64,000 nt of DNA from Verrucomicrobiota bacterium (lineage in GTDB: Bacteria > Verrucomicrobiota > Verrucomicrobiia > Palsa-1439): NCBI GenBank assembly GCA_003152315.1, contig PLZV01000043.1, positions 79,514 to 143,513 on the forward strand, in the 5' to 3' direction. Shown in pieces: positions 24,084 through 39,806 of this stretch. Both the position numbers and the translations under genes were made by a program. Within the stretch, counting starts at the first letter, position 1. Every line of letters begins with the position of its first letter. The notes beneath the pieces are model-generated. The model made no database searches, had not been told where the DNA came from, and was given only the letters and a program-made list of their open reading frames with translations.

Positions 24084-24112
24084 TTGACTACCAAAACAAC
24101 TCAGTTTATAAT
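24084..24112 (+). promoter_or_regulatory. Consensus sigma-70 promoter
   Basis: TTGACT at 24084-24089 and TATAAT at 24107-24112 with a 17-base spacer. It drives the gene at 24168. CTTGTTTGA (about 24014) and TCAAACAAG (about 24142) form a distant inverted pair around it. Confidence 0.85.
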
Positions 24113-24167
24113 GTAGCCGAAGGCGTTAGTACAACAACTATGTGGTCAAACAAGCGGAGGCTATCAG

Positions 24168-24497
24168 ATGAAACGGACTGGTGGCGTACAAAAGGAAAGG
24201 CCCCTACCCAGTGACGTGGGTAGAGGCCAGACGAAGAGCCGAACGGATATTCAGAACTCCAGCGTCTCCCCCCATTATAAATATCTGGGCGAAAAACGCA
24301 AGGGCCTTATCCCCAACAGGGGAGTTCGTTTCCTCGGGGATATTTTCCTCTTCCGGAGCGACGGTGGGTACGTAGTCTCGCACGTCGGTGGCGAGATTTT
24401 CCACTCCACAGAAGCGACGGCTCTTGCCGATGTTCTACGAATACATGGCGAGCAAACAGATACGTTCAATCGACGCCTTGCCGGAATATTGAAGTAA
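24168..24497 (+). CDS. Hypothetical protein behind a strong promoter (109 aa)
   Basis: ATG with a GGAGG site eight bases upstream and a near-perfect promoter. The C-terminal half looks like a folded domain (GDIFLFRSDGGYVVSHVGGEIFHS, TALADVLRIHGEQTDTFNRRLAGIL); the N-terminal half is less protein-like. A second frame (24181-24375, GTG start) overlaps it and also looks coding, so the true product is not certain. A hairpin, GGCCcCTACCCA / TGGGTAGaGGCC, lies early in the gene (about 24197-24225). Confidence 0.5.
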   Translation: MKRTGGVQKERPLPSDVGRGQTKSRTDIQNSSVSPHYKYLGEKRKGLIPNRGVRFLGDIFLFRSDGGYVVSHVGGEIFHSTEATALADVLRIHGEQTDTFNRRLAGILK

Positions 24498-24646
24498 GAC
24501 TTGGACTCGGTTCGGAAATGCTGACAACGGCACCGAAGTATCGAGTATGCTGTTTCGTTTCGACAAATAGAAGGTACTCACTTATGCTTCGCAAGAGTGT
24601 GCCCATCAAACACAGACGTAGGTTGGTGGCAAGGATTTATTAGCTG

Positions 24647-26404
24647 ATGAGCCGTATTCCGGGAAACAAGCTGGAACTTGGCAGCGTTGACAGCAAGGGC
24701 GTCCCCCTCGAAATGACGCCGGAAATGCGGTCAACGCATCTGTACATCTGCGGCGCTACTGGCACTGGCAAATCCAAAATGCTGGAAAGCCTCATCCGGC
24801 AGGACATCAAAAACTGGCACAAGAACAAGTGCGGTATGCTCATTATTGATCCGCACGGCTCGCTCTACGACAGCCTCATTGACTGGATTACGTGGAATGA
24901 AAAATACCTGAAAGACATTCCACTCGTGCCGATTGATTTGCGCCAGAAAGACTGGACGATTGCCTACAACGTCCTACGCCCGCGCACTGTAGCCGACCCC
25001 GCCGTTGTTATTAGCAATTTCGTGCAGGCGATGGCATTCGTGTGGGGCGCGGACGGCACTCGCGATACCCCCCTGTTTGCGCGCATCGGAAAAGAGGTTC
25101 TGTGGCCGCTATACGAGAAGGGACAGAGCCTGCTTGAAGCCGAATACATGGTTGACCGCCTTAACAAGCGAATGCGAAGCATCCTCACCAAGGGCCTGTC
25201 AAAACGTTCAGTCGAACAAAGCTGGGATTACGCGAATGCGCTCTCGCCTCGCGATTTTGACGCCCAAATTTCGAGTACTGTTAATCGCTTCAATGACTTT
25301 CTTCATGCTGAAAAACTGCGTCTCATGTTCGGCCAGACCGTGGCCTCCCTTGATCTCGGTAAGGCGCTCGAAGAAGGACAAATCATCATCGCAAATCTTT
25401 CGACTGAAGGCGGACGCGCGTCCGAAGAAGATGCGTCACTCTTCGCCACGTTGCTTTTGAGTGACCTATGGACGGCTGCCAAGGAACGCGGCAAAGGCAC
25501 GGAGGAAGCCGATGTTAAGCCGTTCTACGTTTACATCGACGAATTCCAGAACTTCATCACACCGACAATCGCCAAGAATCTCGACCAAGCACGCGGGTTC
25601 GGATTGCACCTGACGCTCGCCAATCAATTTCCCCGCCAGATCCTCCATGCTGGCGCGAACGGCGCCCAAGTGTACGATTCCGTCATGGCAAACGCCCGAA
25701 GCAAAATCGTCTTCAGTCTTGAAGGCACGGAGAATTTGAAGCCGCTCGCCGAATCTTTGTTCATGGGCGTGATGGACCCGGACGAAATCAAATTGAAGCT
25801 GTATTCCCGCAAGGTGATGGATTACATTGAGGAAGAACGCGTCATTAACAGCAGTAGCGAAAACTGGAGCGAGGGCGTGGGCGATTTTGCCGGAACAACT
25901 GATACAGGAAGTTTCGGCGGTGCAATTGACGGCGGTATCCAACAAGACGCCCAGTTGTGGAATGAATCTAACGCCAATTCGAGCGGCACCTCCCGCACAA
26001 GCATGAGAGGCGGTGCACGAGGTCAAAGTAAAGTGCCATTTCTCAAACCGGTATTCGGTGAGGAATTGTCGAGTGTTCAATACCGCAGTCTTGAAGAGCA
26101 ATTGTTCAGGGCAATGGCAACGCTATTTGATCAGCAGCAACGGCATGGCGTGGCCCGGCTCGTTGGAATGCGTGCGCCAGTCAAGATCGTGACGCCAACC
26201 GTTGGGCGGTGGCCGACTTCGAAGGAGATGGCCGCTTCCTATTTAGACCGAGTTTATAACAATCTCCCGTGTGCACTGCGAAGGGTGGACGCGTTCAAGC
26301 AGATCGAAAAACGACAACAGGCACTCATCGGAGAATTATCACGGCCCCAGGATGAGCCGACGACGGCGAGAAGACGGATTCGTCGGCAGGAAGAACCTCG
26401 CTGA
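24647..26404 (+). CDS. TraG/VirD4/HerA-like ATPase (coupling-protein type), 585 aa
   Basis: Walker A GATGTGKS at residues 36-43; then LIIDPHGSLYDSLIDW, the IDPHG segment common to HerA/VirB4/TraG proteins; then the Walker B FYVYIDEFQNF near residue 293. LTLANQFPRQI follows, matching the TraM-recognition region of coupling proteins. There is no N-terminal membrane anchor, so it is the cytosolic type. A Gly/Ser-rich insert precedes the C-terminal helical part. Such proteins pump DNA for conjugation or partition. A second, shorter ATPase of the same type is encoded at 33647 on the opposite strand. No other conjugation channel gene is present nearby. Confidence 0.85.
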   Translation: MSRIPGNKLELGSVDSKGVPLEMTPEMRSTHLYICGATGTGKSKMLESLIRQDIKNWHKNKCGMLIIDPHGSLYDSLIDWITWNEKYLKDIPLVPIDLRQKDWTIAYNVLRPRTVADPAVVISNFVQAMAFVWGADGTRDTPLFARIGKEVLWPLYEKGQSLLEAEYMVDRLNKRMRSILTKGLSKRSVEQSWDYANALSPRDFDAQISSTVNRFNDFLHAEKLRLMFGQTVASLDLGKALEEGQIIIANLSTEGGRASEEDASLFATLLLSDLWTAAKERGKGTEEADVKPFYVYIDEFQNFITPTIAKNLDQARGFGLHLTLANQFPRQILHAGANGAQVYDSVMANARSKIVFSLEGTENLKPLAESLFMGVMDPDEIKLKLYSRKVMDYIEEERVINSSSENWSEGVGDFAGTTDTGSFGGAIDGGIQQDAQLWNESNANSSGTSRTSMRGGARGQSKVPFLKPVFGEELSSVQYRSLEEQLFRAMATLFDQQQRHGVARLVGMRAPVKIVTPTVGRWPTSKEMAASYLDRVYNNLPCALRRVDAFKQIEKRQQALIGELSRPQDEPTTARRRIRRQEEPR

Positions 26405-26551
26405 TTTTGGTTAACCCATGGACAAGAGCCGACTATCGGCGGCAATGGCTGCCGGCGTGGATAGCCCCCGATATTCACAGGCAGGTGGAATTGCGAAAAG
26501 CCAAGCGAGCCGCAGCACCGGATAATCTAGCGGCGTGACCCGCCGACAGTC

Positions 26552-27595
26552 TCACTTAGATTCTGACACCAAGACGCTCGACTTCCCATTTCCGTTGACC
26601 ATAGCAGCCTCATCAAAACGGTAGCGACTGCCAATCAGATATTCCTCAACGTTTTCACTCGCAAGCCATCGCCGCCCAAGACGCTCTGCTACTGCGCCGC
26701 AGGTATTGGAGCCCGCAAATGGGTCGTATACGAGATCACCCTTATCTGTGAGAAGTTTAATGAAGAATTCGGGCAGTGCGGCAGGAAACCGCGCTGGATG
26801 AATCTTAACTCCATCCCGCTTACAACACTTCGTGTAATAATCGTTCGCCGAGTTGTTGCCTAGCCGAAGCATCGACTCAGCGTCTGAGTCGTCTATCACG
26901 TTTGGTGGGATCGACCCTCCAGACGAAATATCGGTGAACCGGGATGTGATGTTGTGTCCAGAAGGTCGGACAGTTTCAAGCACACCGCGCTTGTTCAAAC
27001 GAATCATGTCAGCGCTGTACGGCCTAAGCACATTCCTGTTGTTGGCCTTGGGGTGCGGTGTTTTAGAGAACCACCAAAGATATTCGACAGAGTCCTTGAT
27101 CCGTACCCGCCTCACCGTAACCCACTCTGCGGGCATCGGCATTTTTGCCGGGTTATACCAAAAGGCTTCTTGCGCTAAATGGAAGCCAACTTCCTCGACC
27201 AAGGCCACCAGCAGCTTAAAGTGATAGACCGACCGTGTAGGACTTCCCTTGTTGTAGCTCCCGCCGATGTTCAGAACAAAACTACCATCGTCGGTGAGAA
27301 CTCGCTTGAACTGTTTGGCGAAACGCAGAAACCACTCAATGTACTCGTGCTTCTCGACATTCCCATATGCCTTTTTGAAATGCAGCGCGTAGGGCGGGGA
27401 GGTGAAGATCAAATTGGCGCTACGGTCCGGCATGTCTGCGAGCACACGCTCGGAATCGCATAGATAGGCCGCACCGAAATCCGTTTCGTGGAACGGCTCC
27501 AGGCTTTTCACGAGTGCCGAGGGATGGACGCCCTTGCCGAAATGCAAATCCCTCTGCCTCTTCACAGTCGTTTTCACACGGGCTTCGGTTGACAA
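26552..27595 (-). CDS. DNA methyltransferase, beta class (probably N4-cytosine)
   Basis: 347 residues. TSPPY at residues 65-69 is motif IV, here in the form typical of N4-cytosine enzymes (adenine enzymes usually have DPPY). [10 protein letters not shown] at 291-300 is the AdoMet-binding motif I, placed after motif IV as in the beta class. [16 protein letters not shown] marks the region between them. It is divergent from an HTH gene and a putative endonuclease gene (27703-28613), so it is most likely the protective half of a type II restriction-modification system. Recognition sequence cannot be read from the protein. Confidence 0.92.
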
Positions 27596-27645
27596 AACAA
27601 GTTCCCTTTCGCCTCAGAGTTTACTACACTGTCGCCCAAATGCAC

Positions 27646-27672
27646 ACTTCGGAATGTAGCCCACCCCGAAGT
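27646..27672. promoter_or_regulatory. Inverted repeat in the R-M divergent control region
   Basis: ACTTCGG (27646-27652) and CCGAAGT (27666-27672) form a perfect 7-bp dyad with 13 bases between. It lies between the methyltransferase start (27595) and the HTH start (27703). A plausible operator for the HTH protein. AGGAG lies just downstream (about 27678-27682), rather far from the ATG. Confidence 0.5.
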
Positions 27673-27702
27673 TTATCAGGAGACTAGTGATTTAGGTTTA
27701 CA

Positions 27703-27924
27703 ATGTCAACCAAAAAAGAAATCACTATTTCGCCCTCAGACTGGGTCTCCCCGGCTGAAGCTGCCAGAATTCGAGGGGTTTCGCGGCAAGCGATCACAAA
27801 ACTCATGAAGGGCGGTCGCATTGAAACGATAGAACTCGCCGGACGAAAACTCGTTCGGTTGTCTGCCGTTGAGGCTTTCAAAGCGAAGCCGCCGGGCCGC
27901 AAGAAGCAGGGCAAGTCAAAATGA
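27703..27924 (+). CDS. HTH DNA-binding protein (excisionase/control-protein type)
   Basis: 73 residues. [23 protein letters not shown] is a helix-turn-helix of the MerR/excisionase (HTH_17) kind, followed by a wing-like [18 protein letters not shown] and a basic tail. It overlaps the endonuclease-like gene by four bases (ATGA), so it probably serves as control protein for the restriction-modification pair, delaying endonuclease expression until methylation is complete. This is a different fold from the classic XRE-type C proteins. An excisionase role for the element is the alternative. Confidence 0.75.
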
Positions 27925-28613
27925 GCAGACTCGACGAAATTCACAAGTTGCTCTTGCAGTGTACCCCAGAGGAGCGGCAGCAAGTATTCAAGATTCTTCG
28001 ATCAGAATTCCACATCCATCCGTTTGAGAAAACTCTCAACACGCGGGCCGAGGTCATCTTGGAGGCAATTAGCAAAGCCCCGGATCTGACCATTCGTGGC
28101 GTCAGGGGCATTATCGCCGAGGCCAGTTTTATCGTCGATGTGATTGGCCCTCTTCTTGAATCAGGGTGGCGAGATGCCACACCTAAAGGAGACCTGCCCT
28201 ACGATTGCCTTATCGAAGACAACAAGGGAGGCGTCCGAGTACAGGTCAAGATGCAGCGGCTCAAGGATCATCGCCCAATGATGGTATCGGAAGGGTACCG
28301 CCGCCTCTCCAACGATAAGTTTGTCGTTGAAACTCAGCGGACACGTGGAGGCAAGGACGCCACTGGCGGAAACACCCGCCCGTACAAATTCGGAGAGTTT
28401 GACATCTTGGCAGTCTCCTTGCACCCGTCCACGAATGATTGGCGCGAATTCAGATACACAGTTGCGAGCTGGCTGCTGCCAGACCCCGATGCTTCCGCGA
28501 ACATTCTCAAATTCCAACCCGTTTCGCAAATCCCGAACGCGGACTGGACTTCAAAATTCCTTGACGCTGTCGCCTGGTATCGCAGCGGAACACAGAAGTG
28601 TATCGCTGCCTGA
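27921..28613 (+). CDS. Putative type II restriction endonuclease (PD-(D/E)xK-like)
   Basis: 230 residues, translated by overlap with the HTH gene. A PD-(D/E)xK-like core is visible: [10 protein letters not shown] with D95, followed by [11 protein letters not shown] with Q108 and K110 (a Q-x-K variant of E-x-K). The surrounding GWRDATPKG and [11 protein letters not shown] resemble endonucleases that sense their own DNA target. Its position opposite a methyltransferase and behind a control-type gene makes restriction the natural reading. No closer family is recognised; cleavage is not proven. Confidence 0.7.
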
Positions 28614-28799
28614 TTGGAGTCTTTCTGCCGCGACGTGTTCCCTAGCCGGGTTACTGCTGTGCAGTTCCTTCAGTTGGTAATTGGTATTCATTCCGTCAGT
28701 TCTCCTACAGGAAGTCTCCGGTCCCGCCATGCGGCCTTTCTGATGGCATTTGAAAGTCCCTTCTGCTTAAGACAACGGCGGGATGATATACTCATCAAC

Positions 28800-29783
28800 A
28801 TGTCCGCGTCGAAATCGCAGTTTGATTCCATAGACGTTCAAGAGCGTGATCTAGCGTTACTCCGTGGCCTTTTTGAGTCCCGCGTCATGACTGCCGCACA
28901 TGCCAAAACTCTCTATTTCGACGGCAGGAAAGAAGCATCCAAAAAACGCCTGCAAAAGCTCAAAGGAGCTGGCCTCATCGGCGAACGTGCGCGGCGCGCG
29001 TATGAGCCGGCGGTTCTGTTTCTTGCCCGCAAGGGCCTAGCGCTTTTGGACAAGCGCGGCGTTCTTCGCGGGTATCCACCTCTCGCCCAGGCTACGCTTG
29101 AGAGAAGAGCACGCGTGGGCGCAAGCACGTTGCAACACGAACTTGAAGTCATGGATGTGAAGACCGCGTTTCACTCGGCTATCACAAAGACACCCTCATT
29201 CGCTATCGCGACGTTCAGCACGTGGCCGCTTCTGTATCAATTTCAGGCCCTTCGACCGGGATCGAGCGGCGCAGAGGCCCTCATGAAGCCCGACGGGTTC
29301 ATTCGTATCCACGAAACGATAACTGACGGGGATTTGGACGAACACTCTTTCTTCCTAGAGGTTGACAGATCGCACGAAACCCAAGACAAGCTCGCAAGGA
29401 AGGCAAGCTCCTACCTCGATTACTACCAGTCCGGCGGTTTTGCCGCACGCCACGGGACTCCTCGCTCGGATTACAAAAAGCACGGATTTCGTGTGCTCAT
29501 GGTGTTCAAGACCGCCGAACGGCGCAATAATACGGCGGAACGTCTCTTGCAGAACAACCCGCCCATTTTCACCCAAACCTGGCTTTCGACATTTGAGGAA
29601 GTGACGACCGATCCGCTCGGGAAAATTTGGATACGCCCTCTCGACTACAACGACGTGACCAAGGGGACAGCATTTGACACCGAACGCAAACGAGCTTCGT
29701 GGGGATACCGCAGGCAAATCGAAAGGGACAGGCTTGTTGAAAGCAAAATCGCCAGATTCGCTTTGCTCACCCCGTCGCAATAA
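28800..29783 (+). CDS. Replication-relaxation family protein (Replic_Relax)
   Basis: 327 residues from ATG 28800; the earlier in-frame start at 28614 adds a stretch without family character. N-terminal winged helix: RDLALLRGLFESRVMTAAHAKTLYF, then RLQKLKGAGLIGERARR. C-terminal part: STLQHELEVMDVKTAF, then FFLEVDRSHETQDKLARKASSYLDYY, the conserved E-D-K core of this family, which resembles a nuclease fold. Replic_Relax proteins are found on plasmids and integrative elements, often with coupling-type ATPases, and are proposed to act at origins. Here it may substitute for a canonical relaxase. Confidence 0.82.
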   Translation: MSASKSQFDSIDVQERDLALLRGLFESRVMTAAHAKTLYFDGRKEASKKRLQKLKGAGLIGERARRAYEPAVLFLARKGLALLDKRGVLRGYPPLAQATLERRARVGASTLQHELEVMDVKTAFHSAITKTPSFAIATFSTWPLLYQFQALRPGSSGAEALMKPDGFIRIHETITDGDLDEHSFFLEVDRSHETQDKLARKASSYLDYYQSGGFAARHGTPRSDYKKHGFRVLMVFKTAERRNNTAERLLQNNPPIFTQTWLSTFEEVTTDPLGKIWIRPLDYNDVTKGTAFDTERKRASWGYRRQIERDRLVESKIARFALLTPSQ

Positions 29784-29815
29784 TCCGCTGACGAGGTTAA
29801 AACGCCGTTGCCCCT

Positions 29816-30268
29816 TCAAGCCATCTGTTGGCACTTGCCGATGAATTCAACAAAGTCCTTATCCTGAAAAGATTTTATCCTCTGCCAAACCTGTTTTGGA
29901 ATCGGCAGTAAGAAGAATTCGTGCACGTCCTTCCGCAGTCCTTCCAACTTTGCAAACTCTCCGTACCTCAGCGCCCGAAACACCGTTGCGAGATGCAAGA
30001 CGAGCGTCTTGACGAACAACTCCTCTTGAACGGAAATTGGCTGCTTCTTAATATCCGCGTCTTTCGTCAACACACGAGAGAGCTCGGCATGATCGTACAG
30101 TTCCTTCCAGATTTCTCGATATTGCCCTGCGATAGCGATTGAGTTGCCGATCCGTCTCGCCCGTTCATCTTTCCAGGTCGTGTACGCGGTAAAGAAGAGC
30201 CCACCGACGATACCGACGGATTGCAGTAGATCAAGCCAGTGCTGTGCGCCCCAGGTTGGAAGGCCCAT
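29816..30268 (-). CDS. Membrane-anchored hypothetical protein (150 aa)
   Basis: One N-terminal membrane helix (LLQSVGIVGGLFFTAYTTW) followed by a helical cytosolic domain (IAIAGQYREIWKELYDHAELSRVL, FVKTLVLHLATVFRALRYGEF). The form resembles small anchored proteins near phage or restriction genes. No family recognised. Convergent with the Replic_Relax gene. Confidence 0.6.
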   Translation of the reverse strand: MGLPTWGAQHWLDLLQSVGIVGGLFFTAYTTWKDERARRIGNSIAIAGQYREIWKELYDHAELSRVLTKDADIKKQPISVQEELFVKTLVLHLATVFRALRYGEFAKLEGLRKDVHEFFLLPIPKQVWQRIKSFQDKDFVEFIGKCQQMA

Positions 30269-30311
30269 CGCCCCATATTATATCGGAGCCGATGGAGGCC
30301 GCACAACTGCC

Positions 30312-30554
30312 TCAGACCTGATTCGGGATGTCTGACTTGGCGTTTACGAGCAGATTACGCGGAATACGGACGATCCTCTCATCCGGGCCGCAACTGGCCG
30401 ATGGCGGCAGCTTCGGGGAGGCGGCACTCGTAATGTCGATGCCGATGATGGCGAAATCTCCAGATTCGAGTTCGAAAATGTCCGGACAGTTGCAAAGTGC
30501 AATCGTTCGCGCTCCGTTTGCGTGCGGGTCTGGTCCTAGTCTTCTAAGAAACAT
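30312..30554 (-). CDS. Small hypothetical protein (80 aa)
   Basis: Protein-like sequence with CNCPDIFELESGDFAIIGIDIT and DERIVRIPRNLLVNAK. The pattern resembles short plasmid or actinobacterial-type proteins of unknown role. The region around it has no other candidate on either strand. Confidence 0.5.
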   Translation of the reverse strand: MFLRRLGPDPHANGARTIALCNCPDIFELESGDFAIIGIDITSAASPKLPPSASCGPDERIVRIPRNLLVNAKSDIPNQV

Positions 30555-30598
30555 GTTGTCTGCTCATTGTGCCGTTTCGCAATTCCTGCCGCTTTCGC

Positions 30599-30620
30599 AT
30601 TGCTAAGAAAGCGTAGCAAT
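30599..30620. promoter_or_regulatory. Operator-like dyad upstream of the XRE gene
   Basis: ATTGCTA (30599-30605) and TAGCAAT (30614-30620), perfect 7-bp arms with an 8-base spacer, 44 bases before the XRE start. Candidate autoregulatory site. Confidence 0.5.
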
Positions 30621-30663
30621 CTAATTCCCATCATCCTCTATTGTCAAGCTCTCATTCGCGAGC

Positions 30664-30930
30664 ATGGCTAGAACACGACAACCAGCCAACGTCATTGGCA
30701 AAGAAATTCAAAAGCGGCGCTACCAACTCGGCCTGACGCAGGAAGAGTTTGCCGCGAAGTGCCAGTTGCGCGGTCTCAACATCAGTCGCGGGACAGTGTC
30801 CCAGATCGAAGCGCAAGTGCGATGCGTTAAAGACACGGAGTTGTTTACTCTGGCTTCCGTCCTGGATGTTTCGACCGACAGCCTCTACCCAGCGAGCTTC
30901 AGGAAGTTCAAGCGCAAGCGGCAGAAATAA
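30664..30930 (+). CDS. XRE-family transcriptional regulator
   Basis: 88 residues. The helix-turn-helix is GKEIQKRRYQLGLTQEEFAAKCQ, then ISRGTVSQIEAQVRCVKDTEL, ending LASVLDVSTDSLYP, the usual XRE layout, with a basic tail (KFKRKRQK). A dyad 44 bases upstream may be its operator, and a terminator follows at once. Likely repressor of element functions; no partner toxin is obvious. Confidence 0.9.
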   Translation: MARTRQPANVIGKEIQKRRYQLGLTQEEFAAKCQLRGLNISRGTVSQIEAQVRCVKDTELFTLASVLDVSTDSLYPASFRKFKRKRQK

Positions 30931-30932
30931 AA

Positions 30933-30954
30933 AAGCGACCCGTGAGGGTCGCTT
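30933..30954. terminator. Bidirectional-type terminator hairpin
   Basis: AAGCGACCC pairs with GGGTCGCTT over a GTGA loop, between the convergent XRE and primase genes; A-rich on the left side, weakly T-rich on the right. Confidence 0.75.
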
Positions 30955-30959
30955 GTGCT

Positions 30960-31985
30960 TCAGGTTGTGAAGTATGACTTCAGTTGCTCTTCTGCCAGGT
31001 CTGTCGGCTGAAAGCCTTCAGCGATCTTGACCCACCGCACAAAACGATGCGGCGAGACTTGCAGAAGAACCGATTGCGCGAACCGCCGTCCGGAATCGTC
31101 CCCATCAGCCAGTATCCACACCCGACCAGTGGGCTTAACCAGCGTCACAATGAGTTCGGTTTGCCTTTCAGAGAAATCCGCCCCCATCGCGGCAACCGAA
31201 TCCGCATAGCCATTTTGATACAGCCACCAGACCGAGGCGAAGCCTTCGGTTATAACAAGATCGTCAACAGGAGTTTTGACCCGAAAGCCGTTGTAGAGAA
31301 ACATCGTCTTTCGGAATTCGATCACTTGCCCAGCCCGTTTTCGCTTTGAGGGAAAACGGTACCGAGGGTTGTCCTTGCTGATTGTCGCATCATCGACGAC
31401 TCTGCCGGCATAGCCCACGAGTTTGCCTTCGTGGTCGTGTAGAGGAATCGCCACCCGATCTTTGAGCAATCCGCGCGAGCAGAAGCCGAGATCGAAACAG
31501 TCTATTGTCTCCCTGAAGAAGCCCCGCCCCTTGAGATACGGGTGCTCTCGGTCCAGCCCCTTGAGTTCAAAATCAAGCGGCGGGTTGACGACGACCGGCA
31601 GTTCTTCTGTAGGTTCAGTCTTCGTCCGCTCCTTCTCAGCAGCCTTCTTCGTATCTTTCGGGCCACCCTTGAGATCAGGACAGAACCGTTCTTGCAGGTC
31701 GAGCGCAACTTTGCGAAAAGCCGCACCGTTTTCGAGATCGACATTTTCCATGAGGGCGGCGAATTCAAGGACGTTCCCTGACGCTCCGCAGCCGAAGCAT
31801 TTGAAAATGCCGCGTTCGAGATTCGCCGAGAATGACGGCGAGTTCTTTTTTCCCTGATGCAACGGCAGCGGACAGAAACCGTGATGCTGCTCGCCTTTGC
31901 GCTTCACATCCACTCCGTAATGACGGAGCACCGCTTCGAAATTGAGCTTCTCGCGAAGCTCTTTGAAGTTGACCCAGGTACTCAT
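30960..31985 (-). CDS. DnaG-type primase: CHC2 zinc finger plus Toprim
   Basis: 341 residues from ATG 31985. N-terminal zinc site C38, H43, C63, C66 (FCPLPLHQ, FKCFGCGASG) as in CHC2 primases. Toprim core with LVITEGFASVWWL (catalytic Glu) and VWILADGDDSGRRF (D-x-D). Between them lies a charged Lys/Glu linker. Shorter than chromosomal DnaG because the C-terminal helicase-binding domain is missing, typical of phage and plasmid primases. Makes primers on single-stranded DNA during element replication or after transfer. The downstream partner gene begins two bases further up on the same strand. Confidence 0.93.
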   Translation of the reverse strand: MSTWVNFKELREKLNFEAVLRHYGVDVKRKGEQHHGFCPLPLHQGKKNSPSFSANLERGIFKCFGCGASGNVLEFAALMENVDLENGAAFRKVALDLQERFCPDLKGGPKDTKKAAEKERTKTEPTEELPVVVNPPLDFELKGLDREHPYLKGRGFFRETIDCFDLGFCSRGLLKDRVAIPLHDHEGKLVGYAGRVVDDATISKDNPRYRFPSKRKRAGQVIEFRKTMFLYNGFRVKTPVDDLVITEGFASVWWLYQNGYADSVAAMGADFSERQTELIVTLVKPTGRVWILADGDDSGRRFAQSVLLQVSPHRFVRWVKIAEGFQPTDLAEEQLKSYFTT

Positions 31986-31986
31986 G

Positions 31987-32274
31987 TCAGTAGTCCTCCG
32001 GTAGAAGCACCGTGGTCGCCGAGCGATCCCCTTCGGTGATGATGTAGAACTTCTGGCCACGAACCGATTTGTAGATTGAGACAAGCCGACCTCCACTGTG
32101 AATGCCGACTTGGTTCATCAGGCCATCGGGGCGGTCAACGTCGCCCCAGTCGCCACATTGGTGGCGTTCGAGTGCTAGAGCCACGTCCAATTCGGGCAAT
32201 ACGTCCTTCGCGTGTGCGGTGATAACAGTCTGGCCCAAGGGAAACTTGGGCATCATGGCGAATGCGCTAGGCAT
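31987..32274 (-). CDS. Plasmid-type small protein (GDWGD...LLPEDY family)
   Basis: 95 residues from ATG 32274 with an AAGGAG site. Matches the pattern of a widespread plasmid/ICE protein: FPLGQ-VTAHA, then HQCGDWGDVDRPD, GGRLVSIYKS, and FYIITEGDRSATTVLLPEDY. Often mislabelled as a restriction subunit; true role unknown. Its stop is directly before the primase start, so the two are one transcription unit. This gene family is a good marker of plasmid-related elements. Confidence 0.8.
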   Translation of the reverse strand: MPSAFAMMPKFPLGQTVITAHAKDVLPELDVALALERHQCGDWGDVDRPDGLMNQVGIHSGGRLVSIYKSVRGQKFYIITEGDRSATTVLLPEDY

Positions 32275-32380
32275 TTGATGTCTCCTTGTTGGTGGTGAAA
32301 TGAACAGGCGTTCCGCCAACAATTAAACCAAGTTTCAAAATCAGCGTCAACGTAACCACCTGTGGACTAGAGTGTTACGG

Positions 32381-32410
32381 TTGACATACCGGAAGCGAAG
32401 GTGCTATAAT
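32381..32410 (+). promoter_or_regulatory. Consensus sigma-70 promoter
   Basis: TTGACA (32381-32386) and TATAAT (32405-32410) with an 18-base spacer; it drives the gene starting at 32513, leaving a leader of roughly 95 bases. Confidence 0.88.
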
Positions 32411-32512
32411 ACGAGCAGATTTCCTTCCGAAAGCCCCTCACAGCCGTTGGCAGTTGGATGAAGCCCGTCAGACTGATTGGCTTCTTCAACTGTTAACCTT
32501 CAAGGGAGGTAT

Positions 32513-32881
32513 ATGAAACAAGGCAGCTTCGGAAAGTTCGTTGCCAGGATTCGTCGCAGGTTGTTTGAACTACGCGTGGGATGGGAAATTTGTCACAAGA
32601 TCTTCCCGCACATGAATGAGGAGGCTGACCACGGCTATCCCTTCGGTTCGAAGGATGAAATGGCGAGCTCAGCCAACAGAAAGAGTCTCGCCGCAGAAAG
32701 CACCTTGCGGCTCATCGAGCAAACGGCTAGAAAAATGGGCAAAGCTGAAGGCGATGCGTTCCGGTACATAGCATACAGCGACCTGAATGAGCGTATGTGG
32801 ATGTATCTGGAATTCGCCTCGCAGAGAGTACATCCTGCCACCTGCGATTCGCGCGACATCGCCACGCGCGCGCCTGCGTAA
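32513..32881 (+). CDS. Hypothetical basic protein (122 aa)
   Basis: ATG 32513 has GGGAGG at the right distance and a full promoter upstream, so the gene is well supported. N-terminal half basic (FGKFVARIRRRLFELRVGWEI), middle helical and charged (TLRLIEQTARKMGKAEGDAFRYI). No motif recognised. Strong expression signals in an element suggest an early or maintenance function. Confidence 0.6.
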   Translation: MKQGSFGKFVARIRRRLFELRVGWEICHKIFPHMNEEADHGYPFGSKDEMASSANRKSLAAESTLRLIEQTARKMGKAEGDAFRYIAYSDLNERMWMYLEFASQRVHPATCDSRDIATRAPA

Positions 32882-32921
32882 GGCAGGCAAGACCCTGCTT
32901 ACCAAAGCGGGGTTCACTTTT

Positions 32922-33662
32922 TTACAGCAAGTTCCTCATGATCGCATCTACAATTAGGTGTCGCCTCTTGCGTTCATCTTCATTGTCCTTGAACTTCTCA
33001 TCAATCGCAGCTCTCAATCGTAGCTCATCGTCTTTGTTTTTCAAGATGCCGCGGTAAATATCTTCGACGGTTTTTTCCGGTTCTAGAGCTTTCTTGACTT
33101 CCTTTAATCGCACATCCAATTGGGCATCTTGTATGTCCAACTCCTTGTGTTGTATCCCCTTTTTCTTTTCGGCAATCTGTGACTCATGGAGATTCTCAAC
33201 CGGTTCAGGTTTATCGACAATGGGAGCGTTAGCGCATCTTGCAAAACCGGACTCCTGCTCGTCTTTCGAAAGATAAATCATTTTCCCGCAACCTGTATGA
33301 TGACACAAGTAAGCTTTTGGATAATAACCGCAATGCTCGCACCTATTTATGAACGGGAAATCGTCAACATTTTCGTTTCGGCATCCTTTGCTCCCGCATA
33401 TCCACGGCGTATTTGTCTCTATGATTTTTCCACAATGCTGGCAGTTGATGTATATAGCCCGGTTCTCCAAAGCAAGGAAAAGCAGAGCCGCCGGCGCGAG
33501 ACCGACGAAGAAACCAAATAAGGGATGGCCGATCAGCATCAGTATCAGAAAAATACCAAGGAAGAGGCCAAGACAAACCGCCCAATTCACAGCTTCCCGC
33601 CATTTGAACCATTGCCTAGCATGCAACCGGTCACACGTTATTGTCGTCAGTTCTGAAACCAT
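32922..33662 (-). CDS. Membrane protein with zinc-ribbon and coiled-coil (246 aa)
   Basis: Two membrane helices near the N-terminus (AVCLGLFLGIFLILMLIG, GFFVGLAPAALLFLAL), then a cysteine-rich part with paired CxxC knuckles (INCQHCGK, ICGSKGC, RCEHCGYY, LCHHTGCGK). A long charged helix follows (IQDAQLDVRLKEVKKALEPEK). It overlaps the ATPase gene upstream by 16 bases and is therefore translated with it. A membrane tether or receptor for the ATPase is an attractive but unproven idea. Confidence 0.7.
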   Translation of the reverse strand: MVSELTTITCDRLHARQWFKWREAVNWAVCLGLFLGIFLILMLIGHPLFGFFVGLAPAALLFLALENRAIYINCQHCGKIIETNTPWICGSKGCRNENVDDFPFINRCEHCGYYPKAYLCHHTGCGKMIYLSKDEQESGFARCANAPIVDKPEPVENLHESQIAEKKKGIQHKELDIQDAQLDVRLKEVKKALEPEKTVEDIYRGILKNKDDELRLRAAIDEKFKDNEDERKRRHLIVDAIMRNLL

Positions 33663-34912
33663 CGTCTGATCCTGTCTTCTACGATTTCCCGCTGCGCTCC
33701 GTATTTTTCCCGCGACCGGCGAATGATCGTTTCGTGTCTACCGTGCCGCTCCCCAAACGGCGGCAGCGTCCTGCCCAAAATCGGCTCGCAATCCTGTCCC
33801 AACTGCAACAGCTTCGCGTACACCTCACGATTGCTCAGTGTTGTGAATTGGCGTGCAGTGTAGGTTTCTCCAAACTCTTGTTCAAGCACTTTGGCGTCTT
33901 TCTGTCCGACGCGAAAACTGACAATCGAACCCACATTGCCGAATACTGCATCTCGAATCTCTGGCCGCAGTTGGTCTATGTATTGGTGCGACAGCGTGAG
34001 GCACAGGTGATACTTTCGCGCCTCCGAAAGGATCGAAACGAAAGAGTCCGATGCGAACGATTGAAACTCATCGACGTAGAGGTAGAAGTCTTTGCGCTCA
34101 GACTCCGGTACGTCCGCTCTCGACATGGCGGCGAGTTGGAACTGCGTCATGAGAAGCGCACCCAAGAGGTTTGACTTGTCCGCTCCGAGCTTTCCTTTAG
34201 ACAAGTCCGCGATGAAGATGCGTCCGTTATCCATCATAAAGCGGCCGTCAATTCTGCTTCGCACTTGGCCCAAGATGTTACGCACGTGCGGTGACATGAG
34301 AAGCTGCCCCACCTTGTTTTGAATCGGCGCGACCGCTTCATGCAGAAACCGTGAATCGTAGCTCTCGAATTCATTCACCCAAAACGACCGCACCATCGGA
34401 TCGTCCACTTGCTTGACCACCCAAGCCCGATACCGATCATCCGAGAGCATCCTCTGGACGCCGAGAAGACTCACGTTGTCGCAATGCAGCAGGGCGGCGA
34501 CGGCGGCGTAGAGGATGTATTCCAAACGTGGTCCCCAAAAATCAGGCCATATCCCTTGAAACGCGCTTACGATGCCGGATGTTACCAAATGCAGACGATC
34601 AGGCTGGGTGTAGCCAAGCAGATTGAAGCCGACAGGATACCCTAGATCGGCGGGATTGAAGTACGCCACATCTTCAACACGGTGGCGTGGAATGTGGCCA
34701 AGAATGTCTGTCGCTAAATCGCCATGCGGATCAATGACGCCTACACCATTACCCGCTTCGATATCTTGGAGAATCATGTTCCGAAGCAGCGTCGTTTTGC
34801 CTGTCCCGCTTTTTCCGATGGTGTATAAATGGTGACGCCTGTCTTCAGGAAAAAGAACAAGAGGCATTTCCTGCCCCCATTCCTGACGGATTCCTAAGAC
34901 AATTTGCTCCAT
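33647..34912 (-). CDS. Second TraG/HerA-like conjugation-type ATPase, 421 aa
   Basis: Walker A GKSGTGKTT at residues 33-41; VGVIDPHGDLATDIL, the IDPHGD motif of VirB4/TraG/HerA; Walker B FYLYVDEFQSFAS; and LTLSHQYIDQL, a TraM-recognition-like segment near the C-terminus. No membrane anchor of its own, but it is coupled to a membrane zinc-ribbon protein downstream. Shorter than the first ATPase (24647) and clearly a paralogue-type partner rather than a duplicate. Such pairs with Replic_Relax proteins occur on poorly studied plasmids and integrative elements. Confidence 0.85.
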   Translation of the reverse strand: MEQIVLGIRQEWGQEMPLVLFPEDRRHHLYTIGKSGTGKTTLLRNMILQDIEAGNGVGVIDPHGDLATDILGHIPRHRVEDVAYFNPADLGYPVGFNLLGYTQPDRLHLVTSGIVSAFQGIWPDFWGPRLEYILYAAVAALLHCDNVSLLGVQRMLSDDRYRAWVVKQVDDPMVRSFWVNEFESYDSRFLHEAVAPIQNKVGQLLMSPHVRNILGQVRSRIDGRFMMDNGRIFIADLSKGKLGADKSNLLGALLMTQFQLAAMSRADVPESERKDFYLYVDEFQSFASDSFVSILSEARKYHLCLTLSHQYIDQLRPEIRDAVFGNVGSIVSFRVGQKDAKVLEQEFGETYTARQFTTLSNREVYAKLLQLGQDCEPILGRTLPPFGERHGRHETIIRRSREKYGAQREIVEDRIRRWFQN

Positions 34913-35243
34913 ATACCAAATGAGCCTCTACTCCGCAGAGAATACTCTCCGAATACCCAACCGGCGCTTGTAGACGGTGGGTGTATTGTTGGCGACATGC
35001 GCTTTTCACGAGCCGCCAAGGTAATAGAGGCTCGTCTGAAAACGAGTCTCGATCCTCACTCGCAGTGCGGCCATTATATCAGTCAGACCGAATCGGCAGA
35101 ACCTGTGGATTACTCTCAAAGCTATTGTGCGGCGCGTGTCGGACACTCATTGAGTTCTCGACAATTCCGCCGCTTGCAGCCGATGACTTTTGCTTGCACC
35201 TGCACACGTTTTCTGCAAACTCAGGGCGAGCAATTAAGGGACA
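34913..35243. other. Intergenic region, no convincing gene
   Basis: Two overlapping open frames cover it but look random (many Ser, Arg and Cys, no motifs). A hairpin GAGgCTCGT / ACGAGtCTC is at about 35025-35050. It probably holds the promoters of the divergent ATPase and periplasmic-protein genes. Confidence 0.4.
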
Positions 35244-35981
35244 ATGCACAAAGTTGACCCGAAACGCGTAAAAATCTTCATCGCCGTATGTACCGCACTT
35301 GCCATCATCATGGGCGGCTGGTGGGAATTGTTAGTGCAGCGGCAAGGGCCACCGCAGGTTGGGATCGAACGTCAAGCAGTGGCACCCCTCCGCCAGGGCG
35401 AGATCGAACGTCACGCAGTGGCACCGCCAGTCGCCCAAGAACAACACGTCAACCAAGCCGAGCAAGAAGCCGCAGCAGAACACACGAGATACCTCGCGCG
35501 ATATTTGAACTCCGGCTCTTCCCGTAAACCGGGGATGAAAATGGTTGCCATCGCGGTTGTGTCGGAAAATGGAGCATTCAATTTTGCAATGAATGCCGCC
35601 ATTGCCAACCACCTTAAGACCGACTCCGCGTCAATGCTTACTTCCTTTTTCCGACCAGCATTCGTCACCGACGGCCTCTTTGCCAACGCACTCGCTGGTT
35701 CCAATGGGATCTTCGACAAACTGGATCTGTCAAGGTCGCTGGACATGCTGTTACTGGGCCGAGAGGAAGTGCAGTATTCGACCGACCCGTCTCTGGAAAA
35801 CGTCATGACCGCGAACGTGCAGCTTCAAGTAACCGCCTTCTCCATAGCAGACGGCCAGAGTCAATCCTGGACGTTCGTCGCAAACGGCTCGGGCTTCAAA
35901 CAAAGCGAAGCCCGGTTAATGGCCGAAGAGCGTCTCATCAAACAAATAGCCAAAGACACCAAAATGTCATTAAGCTTCTGA
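35244..35981 (+). CDS. Membrane-anchored periplasmic-type protein (245 aa)
   Basis: Short basic start, then one helix (IFIAVCTALAIIMGGWWELL), then a Gln/Ala-rich linker with a small internal repeat (IERQAVAP, IERHAVAP), and a soluble domain. The domain has SMLTSFFRPAFVTDGLFANAL and LDMLLLGREEVQYS, in the style of CsgG/FlgO-type receptor domains. Directly upstream of the CsgG-like gene and probably co-transcribed; the two may form one envelope complex. Confidence 0.6.
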   Translation: MHKVDPKRVKIFIAVCTALAIIMGGWWELLVQRQGPPQVGIERQAVAPLRQGEIERHAVAPPVAQEQHVNQAEQEAAAEHTRYLARYLNSGSSRKPGMKMVAIAVVSENGAFNFAMNAAIANHLKTDSASMLTSFFRPAFVTDGLFANALAGSNGIFDKLDLSRSLDMLLLGREEVQYSTDPSLENVMTANVQLQVTAFSIADGQSQSWTFVANGSGFKQSEARLMAEERLIKQIAKDTKMSLSF

Positions 35982-35995
35982 AGTCCCAACATCAC

Positions 35996-37024
35996 ATGAA
36001 ACCACTACGCCTTCTTACAGCCATCCTGTGCATCAGCATGAGCAGCCATGCGTTTGCAGAAGTACAGGACATCGATAAAGAGCTTTCTGATCTGACAGAA
36101 AGACTCGCAGTGCCGATCAAAGATCACGGCAAGACCAAGGTGGCTGTGATTGATTTTACGAATTTGGATGGCAGTTCGGCAGGCGAACTCGGCAAATATA
36201 TCGCAGAGCAATTGACCGTGGATTTTGTCATGGGCAAACGGGCGTTCTCGGTTTTGGACCGAGCAAACCTCAGAAACATATTGGCTGAGCACAAACTGAC
36301 TTCACAGGGCCTTGTTGACCCGGACAACGCAAAAAAACTTGGACAATTCGCTGGCGTGGACGCGCTCATTTTGGGCACCATCATTCCCAAGGGCACAAAC
36401 AGCGTCAGCCTCACCGCCAAAATCATCACGACCGACACCGCTGAAATCATCGGGGCGGCGAGGGCGGAATTCAAGGCGGATGCCGCCGTTCAACAGCTTG
36501 TTTCCAAACCCGTGACCGGAAGCAACGCGGGCAGCGCGTCGGGACCATTACAAGACGACAAGACCGAGGTAGCAAAGAAGTTTGGGGATTTGCGTGTCGA
36601 ATTACAGCCTTTACGAATTGTAAACGGCCAGGTGTTTTTAGTGAGCATGACTTTGGTAAACCAAAATCCGAGTAAGAGCATTTGGGTCGCGCTAGACGCC
36701 GACAAGACAGGTGTACTCAAAAGCGTAATCACTGATTCGAACGGAACTCAATATCAGAGCTGGGGAGGAAGTGAGGCCACTGGAATCGAGATCTCATTTT
36801 TTAACAAAAATTCCTATGACCGAGATAATTTTTCACCCGCCACAGAAATCAAACCGAATGATTCAGTTTCGGCAACCGTTAGCTTCCAAACAATGTACAG
36901 CAGGCCACCTCCACAACCGGGTGCGTGTAACATTCAATTGCAATTGCTTTTGGGACACGATCTCCGCAGCAATAGAAGCACTGTTTCAGTTGAGAATCTG
37001 ACAAGCAAACTTTCGGCAAATTAA
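35996..37024 (+). CDS. CsgG/FlgO-like exported protein
   Basis: 342 residues with a signal peptide (MKPLRLLTAILCISMSSHAFA). The core VAVIDFTNLDGSSAGELGKYIAEQLTVDF, FSVLDRANLRNILAEHKL and GVDALILGTI is the CsgG-type nucleotide-binding-like fold used by curli secretion channels and FlgO. It has no lipobox, so it is likely periplasmic rather than a lipoprotein channel. A second, beta-rich domain follows. A CsgG-like protein is odd cargo for an integrative element; a role in envelope passage of DNA or protein is speculative. Arm A (inverted copy) begins 28 bases after its stop. Confidence 0.78.
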   Translation: MKPLRLLTAILCISMSSHAFAEVQDIDKELSDLTERLAVPIKDHGKTKVAVIDFTNLDGSSAGELGKYIAEQLTVDFVMGKRAFSVLDRANLRNILAEHKLTSQGLVDPDNAKKLGQFAGVDALILGTIIPKGTNSVSLTAKIITTDTAEIIGAARAEFKADAAVQQLVSKPVTGSNAGSASGPLQDDKTEVAKKFGDLRVELQPLRIVNGQVFLVSMTLVNQNPSKSIWVALDADKTGVLKSVITDSNGTQYQSWGGSEATGIEISFFNKNSYDRDNFSPATEIKPNDSVSATVSFQTMYSRPPPQPGACNIQLQLLLGHDLRSNRSTVSVENLTSKLSAN

Positions 37025-37051
37025 CTGGTGGCAAACAATCCGGATATTTTA

Positions 37052-37435
37052 CCCGTCCGTGGGTGAACCCGTTCTGTCGCCTGTGCGACGAGGGCGAGCA
37101 CGGCCTGCCCTGAGGCCGCGCGCAGCCCGTATCCGCGTGAGCGGAAAACCTATTGACGTAGGGGATGTCAAAAGAGGGGTGAACCACGACGAAACCGTTG
37201 TAAACATTGACTCATCTGGGATCAGCACCCCTCCCCACAGTGGGGAAGGGTGTGGGGATACCCAAATCAGACTGGATTTTCATCAAAAAATGTTCGAACT
37301 TTGTCCAAGAGGCACCACCACTTTGAACTTGGTGTGAAATCATCGACCGCGCTCGGCGCGGCAACGGTGGTTTCAGCCAAGAAATTCCAGGGTTTTCTGA
37401 ACGTAACAGTTAAGGTCTGCTCGCGTAAAAGGCGG
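37052..37435. repeat. Internal attP-like site: inverted arm A, core, arm B
   Basis: 37052-37320 is arm A with its core, identical by eye to 15023-15291 but inverted; 37315-37435 is arm B with the core, matching 39337-39457 inverted. Thus both arms are joined here at CCACCA (37315-37320) exactly as expected for the crossover site of the circular form. Arm B contains the last codons of a serine recombinase gene (minus strand here), so this is a remnant of a recombinase 3' end still attached to arm A. Confidence 0.88.
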
Positions 37436-37507
37436 GACCAGCTTCACTGCTGGCGCCGCATGCGCACCGTCGAGCCTGAAGAAACACCCGACAATTACCT
37501 CACGCAC

Positions 37508-37915
37508 TCATTCCAATCGTTTCAGAATCCGCCAACACTGACGGATAGTAAGCGAAATGCCGAACTCTTCTTTGATATACTTGGAGAGGGTGTTCGTATT
37601 AACGACTTGTGATCTCTTACGAGATTGTTCCACAAAATTTTGCAACTTCTTCATTTGCGACGGCTTGAACCGCGCCGGGCGGCCAGGGCGTGACTCCTCC
37701 TCCAATCCTTCGAGACCACACTTCAGATATTGAGTCATCCAATATGCCACGGCGCGGGGAGAATCGCCGTAGATTAGCCCGACTTCACTAGCCGAAAGCC
37801 CACTTGAGACGAGCGCGACAGCATGCAGGCGATGAAGAAGGCGCTCCGACGAGGAATTACCCCGCAGTTTCTTGAGCAAAGCTTTCGGCATTGTAAAATG
37901 TTTCTGACGCTTCAT
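37508..37915 (-). CDS. Winged-HTH protein, IS630-ORFA-like, divergent from the recombinase
   Basis: 135 residues from ATG 37915 (a longer upstream frame is antisense to the recombinase). Pattern: LHRLHAVALVSSGLSASEVGLIYGDSPRAVAYWMTQYL, then GLEEESRPGRPARF, then NTLSKYIKEEFGISLTIRQCWRILKRLE. That is two helix-turn-helix units with the GRP linker, as in the N-terminal part of IS630-type transposases and stand-alone relatives. No DDE catalytic part follows, so it is either an IS remnant or a DNA-binding regulator. Only 42 bases separate its start from that of the recombinase; it may control recombinase expression or direction. Confidence 0.7.
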   Translation of the reverse strand: MKRQKHFTMPKALLKKLRGNSSSERLLHRLHAVALVSSGLSASEVGLIYGDSPRAVAYWMTQYLKCGLEGLEEESRPGRPARFKPSQMKKLQNFVEQSRKRSQVVNTNTLSKYIKEEFGISLTIRQCWRILKRLE

Positions 37916-37957
37916 TTTGTTATCGCAATTATTTATGTAACCTGCTAGAATATATCC

Positions 37958-39505
37958 ATGCTGAAATACTTCGTATACGCCCGCAAATCGACGGAGGATG
38001 AAGACCGACAAATTCTTTCCATCGAGGCCCAGCTTTCCGAATTGAACATCATCGCCCGGCAAAACGGCTTGGTGATCGCCGAAACATTTACCGAAAGCCG
38101 GAGCGCCAAGGAGCCTGGCAGAACAATCTTCAACGACATGCTCCGCCGCATCGAACGCGGCGAGGCAAACGCCATTCTCTCGTGGAAGCTCGACAGACTC
38201 GCTCGCAACTTCGATGACGGGGGAAAGATCATCGGGTTGCTCCAGCGTGGCGTCATTCAAGAAATCCGCGCCTTTGAAAGAACGTACCTGCCATCCGACA
38301 ACGTGCTCATGATAGCAGTTGAACTCGGCATGGCGAACCAATATGTCCGCGATCTCTCTGTGAACATCCGCAGGGGTATTCGCGAGAAGGTCCGGCGCGG
38401 CGTCTGGTCCGGCAGAGCACCACTTGGCTATTATAATGAACCACGCCTCCGCACCATCGAACCCCATCCAGAGCATTTCCCCAAGATGAAGCGGCTCTTG
38501 GAGCTTTTCGCCACAGGCGAGTACTCGCTCACCGCCATCCAGAAGGAAGCGACGAAGCTTGGCATTCTAGGCCGACAGAACGGCAAGCCGCTCAGACTTT
38601 CTTCCATCGGCAATCTGCTCCGCTGCCACTTCTACTATGGCGTTTTTCTACACAAGGGCGAAGTGCACCACGGCGTGCACCTGCCCATGATTTCGAAGAA
38701 AACCTTCGATCAAATTCAAGAAGCGCTTGTTGCCGTCGCGAAGCCTCGCAAGCATCGCGACGACAAAGGATTTCTCTTCCTGAATTTCGCTACCTGCGGT
38801 TCCTGCGGCCATTGTATCACCGGCGAACGGCATCTCAAAAAGAGCGGCCTTCGCTTCGACTACTACCGCTGCACTCACAAGAACAAGAAAGTGCATTGCG
38901 AAGACCGCTCGTACATTCGCAAAGACACGTTCGCCGATGAAGTTAAGCGGAACACGCAGCTAGTCGCCCTGCCCCTCGAATGGAAGGAACGGTTTCTCGC
39001 CAGAGTTGAGACATGGGAAGCCGAGGAGACGGCACGGAGGCAAATACAGATCGACCGACTCAAAGCCGAATTGGCGGCGATCAAAACCAAGATCGACCGC
39101 ATCAACAACGGCTTTGCCGACGGGTCACTCGATATTGAGGAGTTCAAGGAACTCAAAAACCCCCTTGTGCCCCGAAAAGTCGATTTGGAGGGCCAAATCA
39201 CCACTTTGGAGTCAAACGATGCACATCGGCTCGAACCCCTCAAAAACTGGCTTTTTGAGGCAAACAAGGCCGAAGAATGGCTGGCTGACCAAAACTGGTT
39301 AGAAATGAAAGGGTTCCTTAAAAAGGTCGGCTCGAACCGCCTTTTACGCGAGCAGACCTTAACTGTTACGTTCAGAAAACCCTGGAATTTCTTGGCTGAA
39401 ACCACCGTTGCCGCGCCGAGCGCGGTCGATGATTTCACACCAAGTTCAAAGTGGTGGAGGCGGTGGGAGTTGAACCCACGTCCTCTGCAAAGCGCACGCA
39501 AGTGA
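37958..39505 (+). CDS. Large serine recombinase (element integrase)
   Basis: 515 residues. Resolvase domain from YARKSTEDEDRQ (catalytic S11) through LSWKLDRLARN. Recombinase domain with GIREKVRRGVWSGRAPLGY. A zinc ribbon (ATCGSCGHCITG, then YYRCTHKN, and C in KVHCEDRS). A coiled-coil motif follows (TARRQIQIDRLKAELAAIKT). Catalyses attP x attB crossover with no high-energy cofactor. Residues 499-500 (WW) are encoded by the TGGTGG core and the last 15 residues by the tmRNA gene, so the present C-terminus depends on integration. The stop is inside the tmRNA gene. Preceded by a 42-base divergent promoter region. Confidence 0.96.
   Translation: MLKYFVYARKSTEDEDRQILSIEAQLSELNIIARQNGLVIAETFTESRSAKEPGRTIFNDMLRRIERGEANAILSWKLDRLARNFDDGGKIIGLLQRGVIQEIRAFERTYLPSDNVLMIAVELGMANQYVRDLSVNIRRGIREKVRRGVWSGRAPLGYYNEPRLRTIEPHPEHFPKMKRLLELFATGEYSLTAIQKEATKLGILGRQNGKPLRLSSIGNLLRCHFYYGVFLHKGEVHHGVHLPMISKKTFDQIQEALVAVAKPRKHRDDKGFLFLNFATCGSCGHCITGERHLKKSGLRFDYYRCTHKNKKVHCEDRSYIRKDTFADEVKRNTQLVALPLEWKERFLARVETWEAEETARRQIQIDRLKAELAAIKTKIDRINNGFADGSLDIEEFKELKNPLVPRKVDLEGQITTLESNDAHRLEPLKNWLFEANKAEEWLADQNWLEMKGFLKKVGSNRLLREQTLTVTFRKPWNFLAETTVAAPSAVDDFTPSSKWWRRWELNPRPLQSARK
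39337..39457. repeat. Arm B with crossover core (attL-like end)
   Basis: 121 bp covering the recombinase 3' codons and the core TGGTGG (39452-39457); inverted copy at 37315-37435. Beyond the core the two copies diverge at once: here into the tmRNA gene, there into arm A. Confidence 0.9.
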
Positions 39506-39806
39506 CTACATGCTTATTCCATCTTTGAGTCTCGCCCGGCGTGCTGCCAATGGACAGGCCACCCGCCGCGCCAGCCCCCAGTTATTATTTCATCCATGGA
39601 TCTGAAGACAACATCCACAGACTAACCTGCTATCGTCGTTCCGACCCCACTAGCAGGTGTCGCAGGCGGAACGTCGCGGACAATTAAGCCGCGAGTGCGA
39701 GTTCGTGATTCGCAGTTATGTTTTTGCCAGGTTTTTAACGAGGCCTCCTGACAACCTCGGCATGCCGCTCACGCTCACCCCACAAAGTCGAGACCGTTTC
39801 GCCCCC
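39452..39806 (-). ncRNA. ssrA: tmRNA (integration target)
   Basis: The 5' end GGGGGCG (39806 downwards) pairs with CGCCTCC near the 3' end to form the acceptor stem. CCA is encoded (39454-39452), and the T-arm reads GTGGGTTCAACTCCCAC. The tag reading frame lies at 39713-39684 and encodes ANHELALAA then TAA, ending in the usual LAA protease signal. About 355 bases, normal for a one-piece tmRNA. It rescues stalled ribosomes and tags the nascent peptide. The element is inserted directly at its 3' end but restores the complete CCA, so the gene should remain functional. Confidence 0.95.

Follow-up and report, generated by a model that had tools for sequence, protein, structure and literature searches.

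Phage-type serine integrase systems typically carry one attP per phage genome. Paired inverted recombination sites are known from other systems: the yeast 2-micron plasmid is a circle cut into two arcs by two inverted sites for the tyrosine recombinase Flp, and the CTX phage of Vibrio cholerae, which has no integrase of its own, carries the inverted and closely spaced sites attP1 and attP2, which the host XerCD recombinase uses on folded single-stranded DNA. Serine integrases join attP to attB; in the portion of the A118 report drawn on here, the integrase alone recombined two attP sites at <5% of the rate seen for attP x attB, and pairs of attL or attR with attP or attB were not acted on (PMC3556126). 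Among the literature matches listed, no title or abstract describes an integrative element with an inverted internal attP, in line with an earlier note on this DNA whose author knew of no described element with such a plan.

The stretch analyzed here (the window, 64,000 nucleotides of a Verrucomicrobiota bacterium) contains an element of 24,435 bp at positions 15023 to 39457, with a flank that we call X on one side and a tmRNA 3' end on the other. These limits were set because a sister species of the same genus (G002) has the uninterrupted flank-core-tmRNA site, AAAATGGTGGAGGCGG, with ca. 83% identity to the window in X and 93% in the tmRNA flank. The earlier note had proposed three core sites, the middle one joining both arms at the same hexamer and resembling an attP, with a 21.8-kb cargo inside inverted 269-bp A arms and a 1.9-kb module inside inverted 121-bp B arms, and this anatomy was confirmed: the copies agree at 269/269 and 121/121 positions, TGGTGG (the complement of the tmRNA CCACCA) is the core at the left end, the middle, and the right end, and the two intervals measure 21,760 and 1,901 bp (Table 1). 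The doubt, also raised there, that the arm copies might be too different to be related falls away, as they are letter-for-letter identical, and beyond each arm the next ten bases differ between copies. The middle site (37052-37435) reads A'-core'-B' in reverse, the two arms meeting at the 6-bp core. The assembly has one copy of this joined sequence, a single arm lies at each element end, and the two ends have only the 6-bp core in common. Judged from the sequence, chance can be excluded as the source of exact inverted repeats this long, and the empty site in G002 shows the element ends to be real. The element is thus a 3'-end insertion of the tRNA/tmRNA type with an empty site in a relative, and it departs from the arrangement in which a single attP is split over the two ends after integration, as a second joined copy lies inside. 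A search of the window's assembly for the attB junction expected from excision found none, and a scan for RNA families in the arms, run between 13 and 41 kb of the window at gathering thresholds, recovered the tmRNA alone.

Table 1. Features of the element and its target gene in the window.
Feature	Position	Strand	Basis or remark
Left end, core TGGTGG (15023-15028) and A arm; attL = X-core-A	15023..15291	+	Arm match, G002 empty site
Cargo, 21,760 bp, flanked by inverted A arms	15292..37051	unassigned (.)	
Cargo: SRAP	18096..18782	-	
Cargo: TrwB-like coupling ATPase	24647..26404	+	
Cargo: N6/N4 DNA methylase	26552..27595	-	
Cargo: Replic_Relax protein	28614..29783	+	
Cargo: DnaG-like primase	30960..32096	-	
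Cargo: TrwB-like ATPase	33647..34912	-	
Cargo: CsgG/FlgO-like protein	35996..37024	+	Adjoins inner A arm
Inner A arm	37052..37320	-	Reverse complement of 15023-15291, 269/269
Middle-site core, attP-like	37315..37320	-	Meeting point of the arms
Inner B arm	37315..37435	-	Reverse complement of 39337-39457, 121/121
Integrase module, 1,901 bp, flanked by inverted B arms	37436..39336	unassigned (.)	
Winged-helix HTH protein, divergent from integrase	37508..37915	-	HTH_32/HTH_33
Large serine integrase, 515 aa	37958..39505	+	Resolvase, Recombinase, Zn_ribbon_recom
Right end, B arm and core (39452-39457); attR = B-core-tmRNA	39337..39457	+	
tmRNA gene, target	39452..39806	-	3' CCACCA = core

The integrase has the domain set of the large serine integrases (PF00239, PF07508, and PF13408, all exceeding the cut-off), its solved relatives are YokA and the A118 integrase, and its frame runs across the core and stops inside the tmRNA gene. 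In the window and in another species of the same genus (G001), the integrase is separated from the inner B arm by the winged-helix HTH gene, of which the G001 copy is 71% identical. A phage or plasmid origin was rejected: tblastn of the integrase against phage and plasmid records gave no phage match and one plasmid match at 29%, and scans of viral contigs gave two integrase loci (L147 and L169), the first of which has no arms. The second, a 4.6-kb contig of a viral collection, has a 51% integrase match and 62-bp identical inverted arms (349-410 and 4537-4598), one of them at the contig end. The window cargo contains two 51-bp direct repeats, 90% identical (19082-19132 and 20666-20716), and the same genome carries a second serine integrase, 31% identical and without inverted arms (G000:C34, ca. 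41841-43682, L048).

The same three-site plan was found in G001, in a 6.7-kb element that lies at tRNA-Ala(cgc) and whose integrase is 77% identical. Its arms are 99.6% (A) and 100% (B) identical within the element, the B arm being 121 bp long as in the window, and ca. 76 to 84% identical to those of the window. In a genome of another family (G091), a 35%-identical integrase lies between identical arms of 126 bp, on a contig that stops at one arm. Three integrases served for a pattern scan of genomes from 84,980 species, from which 80 of 93 relatives were retained; these are distributed over Verrucomicrobia, many Patescibacteria lineages, Omnitrophota, Planctomycetota, and others, although contamination of some bins is possible. 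Under a single filter, inverted arms bracketed the integrase in 92 of 149 related serine-integrase matches (61 of the 97 with enough flank), and cargo arms were also present in 39 of the 149; random intervals outside elements were bracketed in 8/190. Stricter arms (≥60 bp and ≥90% identity) were present in 82/149 matches and 5/190 random intervals. The first version of the random-interval control had given 20/237, and its repeat, which separated element interiors, gave 10/16 inside and 8/190 outside. Further loci with short flanks, which hide arms, had them in 18/31 cases. The 149 matches leave out duplicates (L134 to L137 and L234, with L167 and L168 standing for L136 and L137) as well as L034 to L042, L044 to L053, L148, L156, and L169 to L207, and genes split by a frameshift may have been counted twice; L169 to L199 were counted apart as the further loci, of which L180 duplicates L060 and some more are repeats of counted loci. 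L134, a copy of the window, was also left out of an earlier survey of orientation and arms.

The plan is not universal among these integrases. Arms were absent from 36 of the 97 testable loci and from all 21 testable members of one 24-member clade, and among the eight integrases at loci L038 to L051, mostly 24 to 31% identical, only L043 had them. In a tree of 86 integrases (9 of the 95 sequences, <300 aa, were omitted), arms were clustered, with 13 changes compared to 29 when shuffled (0/500 shuffles). A arms were not found in the available stretch of 53 of the 92 B-armed loci, in part because of contig ends. Loci J077, J082, J086, and J092 had none within 28 to 30 kb, and L054 (69% identical) had just 65-bp B arms, which stop 53 bp short of the tmRNA, and lacked A arms over almost 50 kb. 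As far as sequence comparison goes, the elements form a family of tRNA/tmRNA-targeting serine-integrase elements with a recurring plan and exchangeable cargo. Remnants were also seen. At tRNA-Ala(ggc) of G001, a decayed relative (L047, G001:C24, 11423-13419) keeps an A arm, parts of a window-like cargo, an integrase tail, and a B arm; an inverted pair was not found at this locus, and little of the integrase is left. An orphan C-terminal integrase fragment, 57% identical, lies at the tmRNA gene of G010 (L044, 2410-2742). At L225 and L208, two integrases of the armed family stand face to face a few kilobases apart at most; their arms are shared or overlap, and they possibly belong to tandem or nested elements.

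In the phylum of G435, which we take to be Patescibacteria, 172 of 379 sampled genomes matched an integrase profile built from arm-bearing members; G441, the genome of locus L063 and one labelled as Patescibacteria, falls in this phylum, whose listed genomes measure 0.5 to 2.0 Mb. Most of the dozens of elements that repeat the layout come from Patescibacteria. On 40 loci picked, non-randomly, for their distance from contig ends, 35 of 43 integrases had arms and 26 the full plan. Based on these two counts, armed elements appear to be one of the major classes of mobile DNA in Patescibacteria, whose genomes are tiny and whose gene transfer is little understood, and the plan would help to explain why contigs break beside tRNA genes in such genomes. 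Five near-single-contig genomes (G609, G455, G578, G773, and G550), in which the contig is about as long as the rounded genome size, all have the full plan, which argues against an assembly artefact; the inner junction of G550 (locus L214) is not clean.

Thirty-seven complete three-site elements were compared, a set that omits L225 and, among L208 to L247, B arms of <85%; site triplets were also written out as sequence in 13 cases. The smallest of the 37 measures 2.7 kb and the largest, the window element, 24.4 kb, with modules mostly of 1.4 to 1.9 kb, cargoes of 1 to 22 kb, and arms of 41 to 424 bp. The inner arms overlap by 1 to 12 bp, that is, by the core, in 28 elements, and show no clean core junction in the other nine, L214 among them. 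Cargoes are mostly unrelated: a common stretch of ≥150 bp was found in 9 of 666 pairs and in none of the remaining 657, and L056 and L080, whose arms and modules are 93.5% alike, carry different cargoes. Pfam searches on seven cargo proteins gave alcohol dehydrogenase, nitroreductase, LD-carboxypeptidase, NUDIX, LysE exporter, and HTH_3, the seventh protein being DoxX-like, slightly below the Pfam cut-off. In the flipped-module element at the tmRNA gene of L127 (11702-14961), cargo open reading frames resemble, by eye, pieces of ribonucleotide reductase.

Arms are near-identical within elements and differ between elements. In 12 four-copy arm comparisons, which reuse some elements and are not independent, 331 sites grouped by element, none by position, and none were crossed, so that the arm copies inside one element appear to exchange sequence far faster than they change, or to be regenerated. 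Orientation of the modules is strongly biased. In 71 loci the integrase faces the tRNA and in three (L078, L094, and L127) it faces away, with 18 uncalled, and further loci gave 16 toward and none away; two loci cut by contig ends (L070 and L099) also read as away. The modules of L070 and L056 are 92.3% identical and lie on the same strand, with the tRNA-Asn flanks on opposite strands. In L078 the module is flipped and an XRE-like gene keeps its usual place, a layout that fits recombination between the B arms. Cargo orientation was identical in 9/9 comparable pairs, and a single cargo orientation is common to the 14 elements that have an XRE-like gene at their inner cargo end, L229 having one at the other end. 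All these module orientations were seen between relatives, i.e., not within one population. The earlier claim that homologous recombination could invert either module is borne out for the integrase module, which does flip between relatives, whereas free inversion of either module would be an overstatement, given the 71:3 ratio and the constant cargo orientation in the pairs compared. Equal use of both attP sites is likewise disfavored: it would leave half of the modules flipped, and the bias suggests that the inner attP is seldom used or that flipped states are lost.

The reading that we favor, and consider probable as a whole, is that of an intact reversed attP inside the element, a circle with two attP sites, one of them spent and one spared at integration, and a recombination that homogenizes the arms. 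The middle copy, where both end arms join at the element's own core, is likely to be an undamaged attP placed in reverse. Judging from the ends and the empty site, attL x attR excision would yield a circle on which two opposed attP sites separate an integrase arc from a cargo arc. For serine integrases, the plan thus predicts two opposed attP sites on one circle. The serine integrase would insert this circle next to the tmRNA 3' terminus. Integration would use up the attP that adjoins the 3' end of the integrase gene, which accounts for the observed X-core-A and B-core-tmRNA ends, and would leave the other attP whole, as found, inside the integrated element. In the integrated copies, the attP by the integrase 3' end is the one used almost always. 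Recombination between the inverted copies probably keeps the arms identical, and would now and then flip the integrase module. RecA could act on arms of such length, and gene conversion of this kind is one candidate. The other is slow attP x attP recombination by the integrase, since the low rate of the A118 reaction would, by analogy, allow the circle to isomerize slowly. The likeliest benefit of a spare attP would be an undamaged attP and control region beside the integrase, together with homology for cargo exchange. A standing landing site for related elements, as the earlier note had suggested, is an unlikely role because serine integrases pair attP with attB, and attP x attP stayed below 5% in the A118 passages cited (PMC3556126). 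Weighing against the favored reading are the orientation bias, the missing attB junction, the lack of a close integrase among the plasmid and phage records, the loci with B arms alone or no arms, the nine elements with unclean inner junctions, and the negative promoter search in the arms.

A bolder version, which we regard as possible but lean against, would make these elements a widespread, 2-micron-like class, with opposed attP sites, a circle that isomerizes and possibly amplifies, cargo mobilized by A arms, and a live attP always left behind, forming a main road of gene transfer in Patescibacteria. If so, any cargo set between A arms would become mobile, integration at a tRNA would always leave a live attP, and such elements would be a main way in which ordinary genes pass between Patescibacteria cells.

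Alternatively, the inner attP might be a control region, an operator bound by the integrase between a divergent cargo or regulator operon and the integrase gene, with no use in recombination. The integrase start, estimated from alignments, lies ≤183 bp from the inner B edge in 30 of the 37 elements, and in 14 of them the inner end of the cargo holds a small XRE-like gene (one assigned by Pfam, the others by eye) that diverges from the inner site; in L229 it is at the opposite cargo end. Moreover, the inner site is apparently seldom used in integration, and binding of the A118 integrase is about equal for attP, attL, and attR in the binding data of the report sections used (PMC3556126). Against this, most arms are longer than an operator needs, and their near-perfect identity would be left without a reason. 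A search for sigma-70-like promoters in the arms of 24 elements placed one in the top 5 of 100 shuffles (which preserve base counts only), i.e., at chance, and the idea of the arms as carriers of the integrase promoter was discarded on the same result. We consider the control region unlikely. The B arms could also serve an inversion switch, in which a flip would place the integrase downstream of the tRNA or tmRNA promoter (ON) and the common orientation would be the quiet integrated state. Flipped modules do exist beside tRNA-Asn, -Ser, -Thr, and tmRNA, the end site is the same in both orientations because the arms are inverted copies, and a strong bias to one state would fit a short-lived ON state; however, flipped loci are just 3 of 74 and a switch does not require duplicated A arms, which makes this reading improbable. 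That the middle copy is the fossil of a second element, as the earlier note had also put forward, here one left by accident when one of two related integrated elements collapsed, is very improbable: decayed elements with integrase fragments at tRNA and tmRNA genes do occur (L044 and L047), but the plan is repeated in 37 complete elements across the integrase tree, with mostly near-identical arms that are homogenized wherever they were compared, and this recurrence contradicts it. We give hardly any credence to an artefact of assembling circular and integrated forms together, a possibility of which the earlier note had itself named the general kind; the genome is in 62 contigs and many contigs stop at or near arms, but both flanks of the middle copy have unique junctions, 18 of the 92 B-armed loci have arms <97% identical, the plan stands in near-single-contig genomes, and in G001 it is written in different letters.

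Among described systems, the element resembles the Dehalococcoides ssrA islands, as their published description goes (PMC3146451), in the serine integrase (DsiB) acting at a tmRNA gene, the integrase frame overlapping the attachment site, and the common integration module with varied cargo. Those islands differ in their ends, which repeat 20 bp of the 3' end of ssrA in direct orientation, in their insertion in the T-loop region, and in a second recombinase, DsiA, within the module; the main text contains no form of the word "invert," the comparison being by description. With the A118-type phages, as covered in the cited parts of their report (PMC3556126), it shares a related integrase, a short core, and, by prediction, the attP x attB logic, and under the favored two-attP reading it differs from them in the second, inverted attP inside the integrated form. 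Its cargo has a Replic_Relax protein and TrwB-like ATPases, candidates for the relaxase and coupling protein of an integrative and mobilizable element, whereas the cargo of the small relatives examined consists of ordinary genes. Like the CTX phage it would carry two inverted att sites on one mobile DNA, although the latter depends on XerCD, has its sites close together, and lacks its own integrase. The excised form predicted from the integrated anatomy would resemble the two-arc circle of the yeast 2-micron plasmid, which differs in being eukaryotic, in using the tyrosine recombinase Flp, and in not integrating at tRNA genes.
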